The notes under the pieces were generated by a model. That model was not told where the DNA came from. It saw nothing but the letters and a program-made list of their open reading frames with translations, and ran no database searches. Of a stretch of 50,441 nucleotides of DNA, positions 36,976-45,568 are shown in pieces. How positions within the stretch are numbered: the stretch's first letter is position 1; each line of letters begins with the position of its first letter. Made by a program: the position numbers and the translations under genes. Origin of the DNA: an uncultured Legionellales bacterium (GTDB taxonomy: Bacteria > Pseudomonadota > Gammaproteobacteria > Eutrophobiales > Eutrophobiaceae); contig CAJWRJ010000010.1 in assembly GCA_913046215.1 (NCBI GenBank), positions 1 through 50,441 of the forward strand, in the 5' to 3' direction.

Positions 36976-37509
36976 TTGTCTATTCTTTTGAAATCAATAC
37001 TACATAGCCTTATATCAAAAATTGATACATTTACGGAATATAGTGGTAAATGTGTTTCCCTGCTGGTAATCATACTTGTATTCATTGTTGGATATGACGT
37101 ATCAATGCGTTATCTTTTTAATAGTGGATCAGTTGCTATTCAAGAACTTGAATGGCATTTATTTTCAATTATTTTCTTATTTGGTTCAGCATACACATTA
37201 AAACATAATGAACATGTTAGACTGGATATTCTGTATAACAGCAAACTAATAAATGAAAGGATGCGCCTTTGGTTTGATGTGTTAGGTACGCTTATATTTC
37301 TTTTGCCATTTTGTGTTCTCATTATCATTAGTGCATGGCCTTTTGTAATGCAAGCATACATACATGCTGAAATATCACCAGATCCTGGAGGTTTACCAGG
37401 TCGTTGGCTGATTAAAGCAGCAATTCCTATTGGTTTCTTTATGCTCTTAATTCAGGGTATTTCTGAGCTCTTAAAGAAGGTTTGTCTTGCACTGGAGAAG
37501 AGTAAATGA
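36976..37509 (+). CDS. TRAP transporter small permease (DctQ)
   Basis: Small membrane subunit of a tripartite ATP-independent periplasmic transporter, typically for C4-dicarboxylates or other organic acids. The 177-residue protein has four likely membrane segments (about 26-46, 56-74, 96-118 and 140-160) with YDVSMRYLFNSGS and AYTLKHNEHVRLDIL, typical of DctQ. The start is uncertain: no ATG precedes the conserved part. TTG at 36976 is used, TTG at 36988 is possible, and no clear ribosome-binding site is seen. The end overlaps dctM by four bases (ATGA). Confidence 0.85.
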   Translation: MSILLKSILHSLISKIDTFTEYSGKCVSLLVIILVFIVGYDVSMRYLFNSGSVAIQELEWHLFSIIFLFGSAYTLKHNEHVRLDILYNSKLINERMRLWFDVLGTLIFLLPFCVLIIISAWPFVMQAYIHAEISPDPGGLPGRWLIKAAIPIGFFMLLIQGISELLKKVCLALEKSK

Positions 37510-38819
37510 CAGCTATTGTTGTATTAATGTTTCTCTCTCTAATGCTTTTATTATTAATGGGATACCCTGTTGCTTTTACATCAGGATTTGTCGCGCTCGT
37601 ATTTGGTCTGATATTTCTGGGCGTTGATTTCTTTACACTTCTGCCTCTTCGTATTTGGGGAATCCTAACAAATTTTACGTTACTTGCGGTCCCATTATTT
37701 ATTTTTATGGGGATTGTATTAGATCGTTCTGGTATAGCAGAAGATTTGCTGGAAACGATGGGAAAATTATGTGGAAAGTTAAATGGAGGATTAGCTTTCT
37801 CTGTTGTAATTGTTGGCGCGATGCTTGCGGCAACGACTGGTGTTGTTGGTGCGACAGTTGTAACAATGGGTATCATTGCCTTACCAACCATGCTTAAACA
37901 TAATTACTCTGCATCTTTAGCATCAGGAACTATTGCGGCTTCCGGTACGTTAGGTCAAATTATCCCTCCAAGTATTATCTTAATACTTCTTGGAGATGTA
38001 ATGGGTGTTCCTGTAGGTCGTTTATTTGTTGGATCAATAATTCCAGGATTGCTATTAGTAAGTCTTTTCATTGCATATATACTTATCTACTCTTGGTATA
38101 AACCAAGTGTCGCGCCTGCATTGAATGTAGAGAATAATAATTTCAATTTTTTACAACTATTGAGTACCGTTTTTCCTCCACTCTTGCTAATACTTGCTGT
38201 TCTTGGCTCTATATTTTTTGGTATTGCAACACCAACAGAATCAGCTTCCGTTGGAGCCATTGGTGCATTAATACTCGCCGGTTGTCATAGAAGACTCAAT
38301 TTAAAAAATCTTAATGAATCAATGCGACACACAACAAAACTTACTAGCATGGTGTTTATGATCTTAATTGGTGCTACCGCTTTTGGTCTTGTATTTAGAG
38401 GGATAGGTGGAGACAGACTAGTTTTGGATGTAATGTCTAATTTACCTGCGGGTGTATGGGGATTCCTATTTGTCAGTATGTTGCTTATTTTCATTCTTGG
38501 ATTTTTTCTAGACTTTTTACAAATATGCTTCATCGTTATACCTATTCTGGCTCCAATCGCAGTTGGATTTCAAATTGACTTACTTTGGTTTGCGATATTA
38601 ATTGCCATTAATCTACAAACGTCTTTTTTAACTCCTCCTTTTGGGTTTTCATTATTTTATTTGAAAGCAGTTGCGCCACCTAGTATCAATATAAAAAATA
38701 TATATTCGGGAATTATTCCTTTTGTGTTAATACAATTAATAACGATATTACTAATTGTGCTTATACCTGATTTAACAACATGGCTACCCGATCTTATGGA
38801 TAGAGCCCACGGCTTATAG
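37506..38819 (+). CDS. TRAP transporter large permease (DctM)
   Basis: Large ion-coupled permease subunit of the TRAP system. The 437-residue protein is highly hydrophobic, with about 12 membrane segments. It shows DctM signatures GYPVAFTSGFVALVFG, VPLFIFMGIVLDRSGIAEDLLE, the GTLGQIIPPSIILILLGD loop and TPTESASVGAIGAL. It overlaps dctQ by ATGA, so translation is coupled. No dctP gene for the solute-binding protein is adjacent: rsmA is upstream and aroE convergent downstream. Substrate cannot be assigned. Confidence 0.93.
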   Translation: MTAIVVLMFLSLMLLLLMGYPVAFTSGFVALVFGLIFLGVDFFTLLPLRIWGILTNFTLLAVPLFIFMGIVLDRSGIAEDLLETMGKLCGKLNGGLAFSVVIVGAMLAATTGVVGATVVTMGIIALPTMLKHNYSASLASGTIAASGTLGQIIPPSIILILLGDVMGVPVGRLFVGSIIPGLLLVSLFIAYILIYSWYKPSVAPALNVENNNFNFLQLLSTVFPPLLLILAVLGSIFFGIATPTESASVGAIGALILAGCHRRLNLKNLNESMRHTTKLTSMVFMILIGATAFGLVFRGIGGDRLVLDVMSNLPAGVWGFLFVSMLLIFILGFFLDFLQICFIVIPILAPIAVGFQIDLLWFAILIAINLQTSFLTPPFGFSLFYLKAVAPPSINIKNIYSGIIPFVLIQLITILLIVLIPDLTTWLPDLMDRAHGL

Positions 38820-38832
38820 TAAAATCACACTT

Positions 38833-39678
38833 TTATAAATTCTTCAGTGCTTCAATTACTTTAGCTGTATTTGGCTTCACGCCGTGCCAAATAAAAAATG
38901 ATTCTGCTGCCTGCTCAACCAACATACCAAGCCCATCAGCAGCTCTTAAGGCTCCATTTTCGATAGCCCATTTTATAAATACAGTTTTATCACTTGAATA
39001 CATTAAGTCATAACAAAACGTATTTTTATTAATTATATTTCTAGAAACAGGAGGAACTTCTGATGATAGACTTAGTGAAGTTCCATTAATAATTACATCA
39101 AAAATATCATTAGGTAAAGTTTCGTAAGAGAATGATTTTATATCAATTTTATTTTTGAATTTTTTTTCTAGTTCTTCCGCACGTGATAACGTGCGATTTA
39201 CAATTACAATATTCTTAATTTCTTCTGGCACTAATCTTTCGATTATTGATTTAACTGTGCCGCCCGCTCCTAATATTAGGATACTTTTATTTTGTAAGTT
39301 AATGCCATAATTTTTCCTCAAATCATTAATAAATCCCTCTCCGTCGGTCGTATCACCAATAATATTAGTTTCGGTATCGAATTTAATAGTATTTACCGAG
39401 CCAGATTCTAGGGCTCGGCTTGTTATTTCTGTACATAACTTATAAGCATTTTCTTTAAACGGCACTGTAATATTTAAACCTTTGCCGCCTTGTGAGCTAA
39501 ATAAATTAACATACGTTGAAAGCTCATCATTAGGAACTTCAATAGCGTTGTATTCTAATGTTATTCCCATTTCTTTAGCGAATAACAAATGTATTTGAGG
39601 AGATTTGCTGTGTTTAACGGGATTACCTAACACGGCATAATTTGCAACTGAAGGATTGTTTATGAGTTCGTTAACCAC
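38833..39678 (-). CDS. aroE: Shikimate dehydrogenase
   Basis: NADPH-dependent reduction of 3-dehydroshikimate to shikimate in aromatic amino acid synthesis (EC 1.1.1.25). The 281-residue protein has the substrate-binding NPVKHSKSPQIH, the catalytic Lys in GLNITVPFKENAY, the dinucleotide-binding ILGAGGTVKSI, and the NADP-selecting NRTLSRAEEL. The C-terminus shows DGLGMLVEQAAESF. The start is GTG at 39678, without an obvious ribosome-binding site. It lies 35 bases after the CAP-rhodanese gene and converges with dctM. Confidence 0.94.
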   Translation of the reverse strand: MVNELINNPSVANYAVLGNPVKHSKSPQIHLLFAKEMGITLEYNAIEVPNDELSTYVNLFSSQGGKGLNITVPFKENAYKLCTEITSRALESGSVNTIKFDTETNIIGDTTDGEGFINDLRKNYGINLQNKSILILGAGGTVKSIIERLVPEEIKNIVIVNRTLSRAEELEKKFKNKIDIKSFSYETLPNDIFDVIINGTSLSLSSEVPPVSRNIINKNTFCYDLMYSSDKTVFIKWAIENGALRAADGLGMLVEQAAESFFIWHGVKPNTAKVIEALKNL

Positions 39679-39713: not shown

Positions 39714-40802
39714 CTAGTCGCCAGTTCGTTCGACTAAACCGCCTTTAAGACAATAAGCATCAATACCTCGCTCACTCAACAAAAAAGCTGCCGCGGAACT
39801 TCGACGACCACTATCGCAATAAACTATGTATTTCTTTTTTGTATCCAGTGTAGCGGCCTTTATTCTTAAAGTAATAAGAGGAATATTGATACTTCCTTTC
39901 ATCCCAGAATCCTTATGCTCTGATTCAAGTCTAACATCAATCCATATTGCTGTTCCTTCATTAACCATTGCATCTGCTTCTTCCCCAGTTAACCAACTCA
40001 ACATAGGCTCTTTTAATAATTCATTGAAGTCATCTTTAGATAAACGCATTAACGAACCGCTTGTTTCCATAACTACATTTGCATTTCGTTTAGCATCAGA
40101 TAACAAGGCCTCCTCTCCAAATGAACCTCCAACTGAGATTGTTGCAAGAGTAAGAGGAGTTCCTGTCTTTGAATTTCGAGTAACCTTGCATTTTCCCTGC
40201 TTAATGATGTAATAATAATCACCATCCTCACCTTGCTTAATTACCTCTGTACCTGCTTTGACTGGCATCTCTTGCATGCGCATAAACATTGTCTGAATAT
40301 TGGCAGGAGGTACTTGTAGAAAAGCTTTAGACTGCAGAATACTCGTCATCCAATCAGCTTCTTCATCATTTTCACTTGATGAATCGGCCGCATGTATGTC
40401 TGATACTTCAATACCGGACAATTGATCCCAAGTTAATAAAATGTCGAGTAAATCACTATCAATTCTAATTAAACTACAATCTGTTTTTGCTTTTGCCGTT
40501 TGCTTTCTTGGTTGCCGATTTGCAATAGCATGTTTTGCTTTTTCAGTGCCTGCTTCAACAACATAACCAGCGGTACCCGTAACCTCGGTATTTTCTGAAG
40601 CGCTTTCAATCGAAGATACTTCCACCTGTCCCTCAACAATGTATATTGCTTTTTTATCATTATCTCCAGCTTTAAAAATAACTTCCCCGGCAGAAACAGT
40701 CTCAACAAAAGTTTTGCCCGCTAGTTCATCAAAATTCTCAGCCTTAAGTGAATTTGCTGGAACAAAGTTTTTTAATACTGTTTTATCAATTGGTTCAGAC
40801 AT
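39714..40802 (-). CDS. Double cyclic-nucleotide-binding domain plus rhodanese protein
   Basis: Predicted soluble sensor or enzyme of unknown role. The 362-residue protein has two CAP_ED-type domains and a C-terminal rhodanese domain. The first (about 25-125) is degenerate, with an insertion after GQVEV. The second (about 155-265) has a good phosphate-binding cassette, GGSFGEEALLSDAKRNANV, with the Arg that contacts the cyclic nucleotide phosphate. The rhodanese domain (about 275-362) keeps the active-site loop YCDSGRRSS (Cys329). No DNA-binding helix-turn-helix is visible, so it is not a CRP-like transcription factor. It lies between the nitrogen locus and aroE, downstream of a strong terminator. 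Confidence 0.82.
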   Translation of the reverse strand: MSEPIDKTVLKNFVPANSLKAENFDELAGKTFVETVSAGEVIFKAGDNDKKAIYIVEGQVEVSSIESASENTEVTGTAGYVVEAGTEKAKHAIANRQPRKQTAKAKTDCSLIRIDSDLLDILLTWDQLSGIEVSDIHAADSSSENDEEADWMTSILQSKAFLQVPPANIQTMFMRMQEMPVKAGTEVIKQGEDGDYYYIIKQGKCKVTRNSKTGTPLTLATISVGGSFGEEALLSDAKRNANVVMETSGSLMRLSKDDFNELLKEPMLSWLTGEEADAMVNEGTAIWIDVRLESEHKDSGMKGSINIPLITLRIKAATLDTKKKYIVYCDSGRRSSAAAFLLSERGIDAYCLKGGLVERTGD

Positions 40803-40874: not shown

Positions 40875-40907
40875 AAAAAACCTGCTGTGCTTGAAACACA
40901 GCAGGTT
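40875..40907 (-). terminator. Rho-independent terminator after the second amtB
   Basis: AACCTGCTGTG (40879-40889) and CACAGCAGGTT (40897-40907) form a perfect 11-base-pair stem with a 7-base loop. On the minus strand the stem runs into a T-run (complement of 40875-40880). It follows the amtB stop at 40929 and precedes the CAP-rhodanese ATG at 40802, so the two units are transcriptionally separated. Confidence 0.93.
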
Positions 40908-40928: not shown

Positions 40929-42206
40929 TTAAATATCGTAGCCCCTTTCATTATGTAAAACGATATCGAGACCTTCAGTTTCTTCATCTTCATCAACTCT
41001 CAAACCAACGATTATATCCACTAATTTTAAAATAAAGAAAGTCGCCACAGCACACCAAACTACAGTTGCTATAACTCCAACGGCCTGTGTTCCAAGTTGG
41101 GAGGTAATGGAATAAACTTCTTCTCCTTCATATAAACCACCAAAAGAATTTGAATAAAAAACAGCGGTCAACAGACAGCCTAAAATACCACCAACGCCGT
41201 GAACCGGAAATACATCGAGTGAATCATCAATTTTTAATACTCGTTTGATGTATTGAGTCGCAAAATAACAAACAACACCAGCTGATATACCAATAACAAG
41301 GCCGCCAACTGGTCCAACAAAACCTGACGCTGGTGTTATGGTACCTAATCCAGCCACCATGCCTGTAACAATACCAAGAACAGTTGGTTTGCCAGATTTG
41401 TACCACTCACATACCATCCAAGCTAATGAACCAGCCGCCGCAGAGATATGAGTCACTGCCATTGCCATTCCTGCGTTACTGCCTGCTGAAACCGCACTGC
41501 CGGCATTAAAACCAAACCAGCCAACCCATAACATTGATGCACCCGCAACGGTTATTGCCATATTGTGCGGAGTCATCGGTGTTCCAGGAAAACCGCGACG
41601 ATTACCAAGGACAATTGCGGCAACAATTGCGGCAACACCGGCATTGATATGAACAACAGAGCCACCGGCGAAATCAAGAAAACCTATATCACCAAGCCAA
41701 CCGCCACCCCAAACCCAATGACAGACTGGTGCGTAAACAAGTGTTAGCCATAATGCTGTAAACCAGAGCACAGATGAAAACTTCATTCTTTCAGCAAAAC
41801 CTCCGACTACTAAAGCTGGGGTGATAATGGCGAATGTCATCTGAAACATAAAGAAGAGAATTTCTGGTATTGTGCCATTCTCTGTATCTAAACCTACATC
41901 AGAAAGCATTATATTTCCAAGACCAACGATCTTGTTTAATGTCTCACCCCCGTTACCAAAGGCTAAACCATAGACAAATACCAACCATAATATCGATACC
42001 AAACATGCGATGGCAAAACACTGCATTAACACTGATAGCACATTTTTGGCGCGAACAAGGCCAGAATAAAATAAAGCGAGTCCGGGCAACGTCATAAATA
42101 GCACTAGTGCAGTCGAAGTTAAAATCCACGCGGTATCGCCGCTATCTACCTCGGCAAATACTAAACTTGGAAATAATGAAATTAGTAATATTAAAATCCG
42201 ACTCAT
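40929..42206 (-). CDS. amtB: Ammonium transporter AmtB (copy 1, distal)
   Basis: Inner-membrane ammonium channel, gated by GlnK. The 425-residue protein has a signal-like first segment (1-18, cleaved in homologues) and about 11 membrane helices. The twin pore histidines are His186 (GGSVVHINAG) and His336 (DVFPVHGVGG). The cytosolic C-terminal tail that contacts GlnK is present (GLDIVLHNERGYDI). A very strong ribosome-binding site (AGGGGGAAT) precedes the ATG. It follows its own glnK by 91 bases. It differs from the proximal AmtB in loop lengths and signal, so the duplication is not recent. Confidence 0.95.
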   Translation of the reverse strand: MSRILILLISLFPSLVFAEVDSGDTAWILTSTALVLFMTLPGLALFYSGLVRAKNVLSVLMQCFAIACLVSILWLVFVYGLAFGNGGETLNKIVGLGNIMLSDVGLDTENGTIPEILFFMFQMTFAIITPALVVGGFAERMKFSSVLWFTALWLTLVYAPVCHWVWGGGWLGDIGFLDFAGGSVVHINAGVAAIVAAIVLGNRRGFPGTPMTPHNMAITVAGASMLWVGWFGFNAGSAVSAGSNAGMAMAVTHISAAAGSLAWMVCEWYKSGKPTVLGIVTGMVAGLGTITPASGFVGPVGGLVIGISAGVVCYFATQYIKRVLKIDDSLDVFPVHGVGGILGCLLTAVFYSNSFGGLYEGEEVYSITSQLGTQAVGVIATVVWCAVATFFILKLVDIIVGLRVDEDEETEGLDIVLHNERGYDI

Positions 42207-42297
42207 TTAATTCCCCCTGGTTATCCCTAAAATACTCTCTAGATTTAACAATTATATATTTAAATTTTAAGTTCTTTGATGAAAATCATTCTGGTTG

Positions 42298-42654
<357 letters not shown>

Positions 42655-42685
42655 TTATTATTGCAAGAAATTTTTAGCATATTAA

Positions 42686-42701
42686 CGCAGTACCTCCACC
42701 A
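42686..42701 (-). promoter_or_regulatory. Weak sigma-54 promoter candidate for the distal glnK-amtB
   Basis: On the minus strand the bases read TGGTGGAGGTACTGCG. The invariant GG and GC doublets have the correct spacing (GG-N10-GC), but the flanking bases match the TGGCACG-N4-TTGCW consensus poorly. It would start transcription near 42674, about 38 bases before the glnK ATG. No NtrC-type enhancer is obvious in the remaining gap up to the terminator. It is supported mainly by position and by analogy with the strong site upstream of torF. Confidence 0.35.
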
Positions 42702-42795
42702 AAAGTAGTTAATTTTCAGTTGAAATCAGCCTTTTTTTACTATGAGCATTTAAAGCAGTTTATTCGAATAACCATATAAACTGATAAATTTTGAT

Positions 42796-42823
42796 AAAAA
42801 AAAACGGGTCGTGAGACCCGTTT
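42796..42823 (-). terminator. Rho-independent terminator after the proximal amtB
   Basis: AAACGGGTC (42802-42810) and GACCCGTTT (42815-42823) form a perfect 9-base-pair stem with a 4-base loop; on the minus strand a run of nine T follows (complement of 42796-42804). It lies 33 bases after the amtB stop and before the second glnK, so the duplicated pairs are separate transcription units. Confidence 0.93.
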
Positions 42824-42855
42824 AATCTTTGGGGAGGAAAGTTATTTAAATCTGA

Positions 42856-44193
42856 CTACAAGATGTAACCTCTCTCATTGTGAGAATTAACATCGAGGCC
42901 TCCAACTTCTTCTTCTTCATCTACTCGTAGACCCATGACTGAATCTAGGATCATTAATATGATAGAAGTTAAAACGCCTGTATAAATTATCGTAAATAAA
43001 ACGCTCTTTATTTGGATCCAAACCTGAGCAGACATAGTAACGTCTAGACCAGAACCACCCCATACAGATGATGCACAAACTCCGGTCAAAATAGCGCCAA
43101 TAATACCGCCAACAGCATGCACTCCAAATACATCGAGAGAATCGTCATAACCCATTGCACGCTTTATAGTTGTGGAAGCAAAGAAGCATCCGAAACCAGC
43201 CGCGGCTCCAATTAATAGCGCTCCCTGGGGACCCGCGCTACCTGAAGCTGGTGTTATTGCGACTAGTCCGGCAACTGCGCCTGTAATAATGCCCAGAACA
43301 CTCGGCTTTCCATGACTATTCCATTCGGCAATCATCCAAGCTAATGCAGCGGTTGCGGTTGCAATCTGTGTTACTAACATTGCCATACCTGTAACCCCGT
43401 CTGCTGCCAATTCTGAACCTGCATTAAAACCAAACCAGCCAACCCATAACATTGAGGCACCAATTACTGATAGAGTTAAATTATGAGGAGGCATAGCAGT
43501 TTCAGGATAACCCTTACGTTTGCCAAGCATGATTGCAGCAACGAGTCCTGCGATACCAGCATTAATATGTACAACTGTACCGCCAGCAAAATCAAGAACG
43601 CCCCAATCCCAAAGTAGGCCGCCGTCTCCAGCCCAAACCATATGAACCATTGGGAAATAACAAATGGTTACCCAAAGCGCCATGAAAACCATCATAGTTG
43701 AGAATTTCATTCTTTCAGCAAAAGCCCCAACTATAAGAGCAGGGGTTATGATCGCAAAAGTTAATTGGAATGTAGCAAATACAGATTCAGGAATTGATCC
43801 AGAAATAGAATCAACAGAAATGCCCTGTAAAAAAGTATTGCCAAGACCACCGACAATAGAATTCAAATTAACAACGCCTGCTTCCATTCCCGTTGTATCA
43901 AAGGCCATGCTATAGCCATATACAACCCAAATTACGGTAACCATGCAACATATTGCAAAACACTGCATCAAAACTGAAAGCACGTTTTTACTCCTGACCA
44001 TACCAGCATAAAATAAACTCAAGCCTGGTATAGTCATCATTAAAACTAATACGGTTGCAGTAAGCATCCAAGCGGTATCGCCTGAATTCAATTCATCAGC
44101 TAAAACAAGCGATGGTGCTAACAAGGTAATAAAACCGAGCACAGTGCCTGATAAGCCTTTCTTGTTAAATAAAGCACTTAATAAACGTTTCAC
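42856..44193 (-). CDS. amtB: Ammonium transporter AmtB (copy 2, proximal)
   Basis: Second ammonium channel of the locus. The 445-residue protein has a longer signal-like N-terminus (1-32, ending near VLADEL), about 11 membrane helices, the twin histidines His209 (GGTVVHINAG) and His359 (DVFGVHAVGG), and the GlnK-binding tail GLDVNSHNERGYIL. The start is GTG at 44193 with an excellent AAGGAG ribosome-binding site. It follows glnK by 26 bases, as the third gene of torF-glnK-amtB, and ends before a strong terminator. Confidence 0.95.
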   Translation of the reverse strand: MKRLLSALFNKKGLSGTVLGFITLLAPSLVLADELNSGDTAWMLTATVLVLMMTIPGLSLFYAGMVRSKNVLSVLMQCFAICCMVTVIWVVYGYSMAFDTTGMEAGVVNLNSIVGGLGNTFLQGISVDSISGSIPESVFATFQLTFAIITPALIVGAFAERMKFSTMMVFMALWVTICYFPMVHMVWAGDGGLLWDWGVLDFAGGTVVHINAGIAGLVAAIMLGKRKGYPETAMPPHNLTLSVIGASMLWVGWFGFNAGSELAADGVTGMAMLVTQIATATAALAWMIAEWNSHGKPSVLGIITGAVAGLVAITPASGSAGPQGALLIGAAAGFGCFFASTTIKRAMGYDDSLDVFGVHAVGGIIGAILTGVCASSVWGGSGLDVTMSAQVWIQIKSVLFTIIYTGVLTSIILMILDSVMGLRVDEEEEVGGLDVNSHNERGYIL

Positions 44194-44219
44194 TATTTTA
44201 TCTCCTTAAGAAATTAGAT

Positions 44220-44597
<378 letters not shown>

Positions 44598-45408: not shown

Positions 45409-45424
45409 TGCATCTTGCGTGCCA
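45409..45424 (-). promoter_or_regulatory. Sigma-54 (RpoN) promoter of torF-glnK-amtB
   Basis: On the minus strand the bases read TGGCACGCAAGATGCA. Against the consensus TGGCACG-N4-TTGCW, the -24 block matches seven of seven and the -12 block four of five. The predicted start is near 45398, giving a leader of about 60 bases before the torF ATG. Enhancer-like sites lie upstream at the expected distance. Confidence 0.88.
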
Positions 45425-45526: not shown

Positions 45527-45529
45527 TAT

Positions 45530-45544
45530 GCACAAACTTGGTGC
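45530..45544. promoter_or_regulatory. NtrC-type enhancer site
   Basis: GCACAAACTTGGTGC matches the palindromic NtrC consensus GCACC-N5-GGTGC with correct 15-base spacing and one arm mismatch. Its centre lies about 139 bases upstream of the predicted sigma-54 start, close to the distances (about 108 and 140) of the glnA enhancer sites in enteric bacteria. It supports nitrogen-limitation control of torF-glnK-amtB. Confidence 0.72.
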
Positions 45545-45568
45545 GAAAAATGAAATAACGTAAGTGGA

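Follow-up and report, generated by a model that had tools for sequence, protein, structure and literature searches.

What does a protein do that joins two cyclic-nucleotide-binding (CNB) domains to a rhodanese domain, carries no DNA-binding domain and is encoded beside a nitrogen locus? Cyclic AMP in bacteria is known chiefly through DNA-binding proteins of the CRP type. The protein in question lies on a contig of an uncultured Legionellales bacterium, of which we analysed a stretch of 50,441 nucleotides (hereafter, the window); we call it CNBR, for CNB-A, CNB-B and rhodanese. We propose, with moderate confidence, that CNBR is a non-transcriptional effector of a cyclic nucleotide, most likely cAMP, with a sulfurtransferase output. 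If this is true, a widespread and conserved CNB protein would give cAMP a direct effect on sulfur chemistry that does not pass through transcription. The parts of the protein are as follows.

39714..40802, minus strand: CNBR, an ATG-started open reading frame of 362 amino acids
40443..40703, minus strand: CNB-A, degenerate, 39.7 bits to PF00027 on its own
40008..40265, minus strand: CNB-B with a phosphate-binding cassette, 69.1 bits to PF00027 on its own
40080..40121, minus strand: the cassette of CNB-B, FGEEALLSDAKRNA, residues 228-241, with Glu230 in 160 and Arg239 in 161 of 163 homologues
39732..39983, minus strand: rhodanese domain, residues 274-357, 51.3 bits to PF00581, fold match 8a56
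39798..39818, minus strand: rhodanese active-site loop C-D-S-G-R-R-S, residues 329-335, with Cys329 in 161 of 163 homologues

The architecture had been read from the sequence in an earlier note on this DNA, and the domain-profile search that the note suggested bears it out. The whole protein scores 103 bits to cNMP_binding (PF00027) over two stretches, against a Pfam cut-off of 27.5 that each CNB half also passes singly, and the rhodanese score compares with a cut-off of 22.2. One CNB domain is degenerate and one intact, as the note had it: CNB-A has no FGE and so lacks the FGE ... Arg cassette, and CNB-B keeps both FGE and the arginine. The rhodanese loop, CDSGRRSS, is likewise intact, and its six-residue cysteine loop (CDSGRR) is presumably that of a sulfurtransferase-type rhodanese. 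Pfam shows no helix-turn-helix family in CNBR at E ≤ 1, in agreement with the note, and the C-terminus is taken up by the rhodanese domain. CNBR thus shares with CRP-type regulators a CNB domain with the cassette arginine and differs from them in lacking a helix-turn-helix, which the CRP-like regulator of the same genome (L001) does have. Docking-domain and TIR families were also absent from CNBR at E ≤ 1 in Pfam, and among the NCBIfam models listed none reached its cut-off. Matches to Toprim (14.5 bits) and TacA1 (12.8 bits) were dismissed, being under the Pfam cut-off.

We then asked which residues the family keeps, using 163 collected homologue rows, of which 154 are distinct and in which some named and unnamed loci represent one genome. 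Glu230, Arg239 and Cys329 are all three present in 156 of the 163, more than expected by chance. In CNB-A, Pro98-Arg99 stands in place of the FGE glutamate; Pro98 is found in 161 and Arg99 in 153 of the homologues, and a GE motif at the place of FGE in a single one. With Glu230 and Arg239 kept on one side, and FGE missing while Pro98 and Arg99 are kept on the other, CNB-B looks built for a ligand and CNB-A looks like its conserved degenerate partner. From these residues, we consider it probable that CNB-B binds some cyclic nucleotide, and there is similarly good reason to expect the rhodanese domain to be catalytically competent. Among the 72 rows of the window's group (defined below) and the 91 other rows, which include some aroE-linked ones, conservation extends to Asn240 after the cassette arginine (72/72 and 85/91), Glu231 (72/72 and 83/91) and Arg334 in the rhodanese loop (62/72 and 86/91). 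Seven rows are exceptional: Glu230 is lost in L165, L192 and L160, Arg239 in L162 and in one of the two L163 proteins, and Cys329 in L223 and in the second L163 protein. None of the seven has lost a cassette residue together with Cys329, so the pattern of losses gives no sign that the CNB and rhodanese parts are coupled.

An AlphaFold2 model of CNBR (42 sequences; mean pLDDT 80.1, pTM 0.39) shows the single domains well but not how they pack against each other, with low-confidence stretches at residues 67-77 and 129-147; at this pTM, the model lends no support to a gating-type packing of the domains. A Foldseek search ranked the tandem CNB domains of PKG and PKA regulatory structures first. 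In VIA-align 2, CNB-B aligned with the type I regulatory subunit of PKA in complex with the cAMP analogue Rp-8-Br-cAMPS (3plq; Z 17.1, rmsd 1.4 over 111 residues), and the C-terminal part with the rhodanese domain of a CoA-persulfide reductase (8a56; Z 17.3, rmsd 1.5 over 92 residues, 32 percent identity), with several further rows, other rhodanese rows included, tied with these two. The fold shared with 8a56 is there part of a persulfide reductase and has no CNB domain. In the model of CNBR, a short helix (residues 256-263) follows CNB-B and leads almost straight into the rhodanese domain.

These elements suggest a mechanism. CNB-B would use Glu230 and Arg239 to bind a cyclic mononucleotide, most likely cAMP, and CNB-A, as the degenerate partner, would probably hold or relay the conformational change, as in the regulatory tandem CNB domains of PKA and PKG. 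The change would pass along the short helix after CNB-B to the rhodanese domain. Because this helix enters that domain almost directly, a movement of the helix could gate the pocket of Cys329 and so alter access to this residue or its loading with sulfur, a final step that we infer.

The same fold matches allow another interpretation, in which CNBR is an adaptor resembling the PKA regulatory subunit (PKA-R) within a Ser/Thr phosphorylation network: the interaction of CNBR with a kinase or phosphatase would respond to the nucleotide, and the rhodanese domain would be no enzyme but a redox or persulfide sensor or a docking module. PKA-R and PKG share the tandem CNB domains and are what the CNB part matches best in the PDB, both by sequence and by fold. 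CNBR differs from them in its degenerate CNB-A, its rhodanese output, the absence of a kinase and the want of room for docking and inhibitor segments: the CNB-A profile match starts near residue 34, and the ~33 residues ahead of it are too few for a docking domain and an inhibitor segment. Some gene neighbourhoods speak for an adaptor. Outside the window's group, a homology search found a CHASE2-linked kinase at 12 of 73 loci, a PP2C at 15 and an FHA protein at 11, the names resting on Pfam matches of one representative of each cluster; several of the kinase- and cyclase-linked loci are close kin and do not count as independent events. At L110 and L117, the order is an SLT-LysM gene, CNBR, a CHASE2-kinase, PP2C, FHA and a CHASE2-cyclase, plus a short opposite open reading frame, named mostly from Pfam on one member per cluster. 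The window's genome also has three Ser/Thr kinase matches and a cyclase-FHA protein beside a PP2C-like gene. Against this, neither a kinase nor a PP2C occurs in the fetched stretch at any of the 72 loci of the window's group, and the retention of Cys329 in nearly all collected homologues favours catalysis over a docking role. We regard the adaptor as unlikely and prefer an effector with a sulfurtransferase output. More broadly, and quite tentatively, the family could be an overlooked cAMP output arm in many Gammaproteobacteria that leads from a PKA-R-like tandem sensor to persulfide transfer and is connected, in some relatives, with CHASE2 kinases and cyclases as well as PP2C and FHA proteins; if so, cyclic nucleotides, Ser/Thr phosphorylation and sulfane sulfur would converge in one protein family.

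Two further features of the window's genome touch on phosphorylation. Its only class III cyclase match (L259, 3798-5478) belongs to a protein that also has an FHA domain, and the PP2C-like gene comes after it, an arrangement that suggests cross-talk with Ser/Thr phosphorylation. Two of its Ser/Thr kinases (L261, 5083-6888; L262, 3-3962) have C-termini that, by eye, resemble sulfatase-modifying-factor domains.

We next considered the nature of the ligand through the cyclases of the genomes that carry the family, searched at E ≤ 1e-8 like GGDEF. A cyclase (PF00211 or PF01295) was found in 166 of 169 family-bearing genomes versus 86 of 200 without the family, uncorrected for kinship; the three exceptions are G108, G231 and G263. 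Class I cyclases, which make cAMP, are present in 97/169 genomes with the family and 10/200 without, again uncorrected for kinship. Class III cyclases may have more than one product. GGDEF is itself associated with the family (169/169 versus 147/200 genomes), so part of the co-occurrence reflects general signalling richness. When we held genome size and GGDEF, the only two factors controlled, by keeping GGDEF-positive genomes of at least 2 Mb, a cyclase was present in 158 of 161 genomes with the family and 62 of 112 without, kinship being uncorrected here too. This co-occurrence helps the reading of CNBR as a nucleotide-gated sulfurtransferase. At the level of single loci, cyclase genes were counted with a profile made from six domains, of which five came from loci included in the count: of 75 loci where CNBR has no adjacent aroE, 8 have a cyclase gene in the fetched stretch, as against none of 82 aroE-linked loci. 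CHASE2-cyclases lie at L110, L117, L167, L187, L188 and L207 by Pfam and at L186 by the profile only, and a class I cyclase lies at L197. Three of six genomes of the window's genus (92, 66 and 87 percent complete) show neither a class III nor a class I cyclase, and the window's own genome has its single class III match.

The cassette of CNB-B has Glu231 after FGE and Lys238 before the arginine, two positions at which it departs from the canonical motif as given in PMC2246266. These residues would fit an effector of the same design with cGMP, a cyclic pyrimidine nucleotide or, like trypanosome PKA-R, a nucleoside as its ligand in place of cAMP. Structures of trypanosome PKA-R bound to guanosine or complexed with a nucleoside are among the Foldseek matches. 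PADLOC models of the Pycsar system also match the CNB region, at no more than 33 bits, and the range of products attributed to class III cyclases leaves room for such a ligand. The enrichment of class I cyclases in family-bearing genomes points instead to cAMP, and CNBR has none of the TIR or membrane effector parts that accompany the CNB domain in Pycsar defence effectors. We therefore think that a ligand other than cAMP is improbable, and cAMP remains our preferred choice. A defence role for CNBR was rejected as well, since the PADLOC matches are limited to the CNB region (residues 152-271).

Does the neighbourhood, with its ammonium transport genes, point to another role? The features concerned are the following.

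38833..39678, minus strand: aroE, shikimate dehydrogenase, NCBIfam NF001310 at 350.9 bits (cut-off 221)
40879..40907, minus strand: terminator-like hairpin between amt and CNBR, 13 pairs then TTTTATTAAG
40929..42206, minus strand: amt, ammonium transporter, PF00909 at 400.7 bits

We defined the window's group as the window, L038-L107 and L112, 72 loci with at least 53 percent identity. Nine further kept loci (L108-L111 and L113-L117) with 47-50 percent identity were placed outside it beforehand; they have other neighbours, with aroE in none. The usual order in the group, in one direction, is torF, glnK, amt, glnK, amt, CNBR and aroE, followed beyond aroE by the convergent genes dctM and dctQ (some loci), rsmA, pdxA, surA and lptD. 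The location between rsmA and apaG described in the earlier note is correct; since the gene order recurs across these loci, what the note called an inserted block represents an arrangement conserved in the window's group. The neighbourhood survey that it suggested shows the arrangement (glnK-amt)-CNBR-aroE to be conserved in this group and other neighbours to occur outside. The window has two glnK-amt pairs in succession (40929-44558), as do many related loci, with a TorF-type putative porin gene ahead of them. The genes dctQ-dctM of a TRAP transporter, at 36976-38819 between rsmA and aroE in the window, are found at 33 of 81 loci, a set that includes the window and some contigs too short to reach these genes.

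aroE is linked to CNBR more tightly than amt or glnK. It follows CNBR after 35 bp in the window and lies next to it on the same strand at 70 of the 71 group loci with enough sequence, with a median gap of 37.5 bp; our gene caller takes the longest open reading frame, so some starts fall too early and give negative gaps. CNBR and aroE are probably on one transcript, as the note had supposed. In a quick tree of 154 sequences with many long branches, the 75 aroE-linked rows make 4 label changes, against a shuffled mean of 51.9.

An amt or glnK gene within 1 kb upstream of CNBR, seen at 60 of 68 group loci, would be expected if CNBR belonged to ammonium/PII control and acted with GlnK or AmtB. The transcription signals argue otherwise. 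A terminator-like hairpin stands in 24 of 59 amt-CNBR gaps, including that of the window, where the note had seen a terminator, and in 5 of 295 gaps shuffled base by base; once five gaps with a further glnK inside them are set aside, this becomes 21 of 54. Of 36 loci, 30 have NtrC-like sites (≤3 mismatches) and 24 have sigma-54-like sites (≤2 mismatches) upstream of torF; those of the window, at 45529-45545 and 45409-45424 respectively, are likely the promoter of the torF-glnK-amt-glnK-amt genes. In the 300 bp upstream of CNBR, the same sites were at the level of shuffles made from CNBR upstream sequence only (NtrC-like 10/81 versus 32/243; sigma-54-like 11/81 versus 25/243), and the window has neither site there. 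Furthermore, a genome from the window's taxonomic family that lacks CNBR (L246) retains the glnK/amt/aroE locus, and two loci (L089 and L090) have CNBR-aroE with no amt in the fetched stretch. Judging from these signals, amt and CNBR are probably separate transcription units, in line with the note, which had seen no clear link to nitrogen control. We rejected nitrogen control of CNBR on the promoter and terminator evidence despite the conserved neighbourhood, and a part for CNBR in ammonium/PII control seems to us very unlikely. Control of the CNBR gene by CRP was set aside too: a CRP box (≤1 mismatch) is present in none of 81 regions upstream of CNBR, and equally in none of 61 upstream of glnK and none of 36 upstream of torF.

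The combination of a CNB domain with a rhodanese domain is already in print: a rhodanese homology domain is one of those that Kannan et al. (2007; PMC2246266) record as joined to their 'Other_bacterial' CNB proteins, a family that, taken together, is frequent in their ocean data. Their proteins resemble CNBR in this joining of domains; section 6 of that paper names the attached domain only, with nothing there on a tandem CNB arrangement, on gene context or on function. Our literature search found no recognisable functional study of a CNB-rhodanese protein. The earlier note, which could match the role to no characterised protein, needs correction in that the family is widespread, its domain combination was published in 2007 and its neighbourhood is conserved in the window's group. 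Like PspE and GlpE of E. coli, as described in PMC2593051, CNBR has a single rhodanese domain with a cysteine loop; unlike them, it has sensor domains, and it scores 40.2 bits to the NCBIfam PspE model, for which the cut-off is 102. New here is that the key residues are conserved, that aroE and amt are recurrent neighbours, that the gene stands apart from nitrogen control, that the family co-occurs with cyclases and that some relatives are linked to kinases and cyclases. The family that emerges is large, conserved and little studied, and may tie cyclic-nucleotide signalling to sulfur chemistry bypassing DNA.

How far does this family extend? A profile of 16 sequences (E ≤ 1e-30), whose matches are relatives of several kinds beyond orthologs, found it in 169 of 369 genomes sampled over the class, and in 143 of the 314 good ones. 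With CNBR alone as query, 34 of 40 relatives matched at E ≤ 1e-10, counting its own genome, with the match limited to CNB in G027 and G028. CNBR is present in every one of the six genomes searched from the window's genus, its own included, although these measure only 1.0-1.5 Mb. A scan of genome contigs gave 269 relatives; the best 80 of these come from metagenome-assembled genomes titled Gammaproteobacteria, Proteobacteria, Pseudomonadota, Legionellales, Thiotrichaceae, Thiotrichales or Ectothiorhodospiraceae, and from one named strain, Methylohalomonas lacus HMT 1 (L092), whose protein is an ortholog with 62 percent identity. Four more of the 80, from metagenome-assembled genomes titled Klebsiella pneumoniae (L070, L079, L094 and L099), have CNBR and its neighbours as in the uncultured relatives, and these titles may belong to mislabelled bins. 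A phage or plasmid origin was rejected: a pattern scan of viral contigs yielded 21 candidate stretches and no confirmed one, and plasmids gave no match to CNBR at 1e-20.

The CNB domain also occurs in other settings in this genome and family. The window's genome encodes an 802-amino-acid protein (L002, 841-3249) with two CNB matches between an oxidoreductase-like part and ferredoxin-like clusters, parts of which were assigned by eye, and this protein has a likeness to the Bact_Pyrredox family of Kannan. Longer relatives of CNBR carry a coiled coil C-terminal to the rhodanese domain. One of 1718 amino acids (L206, 4218-9374) runs, by eye, from CNB-CNB-rhodanese through a long coiled coil and a membrane segment to a sulfatase-modifying-factor-like end.
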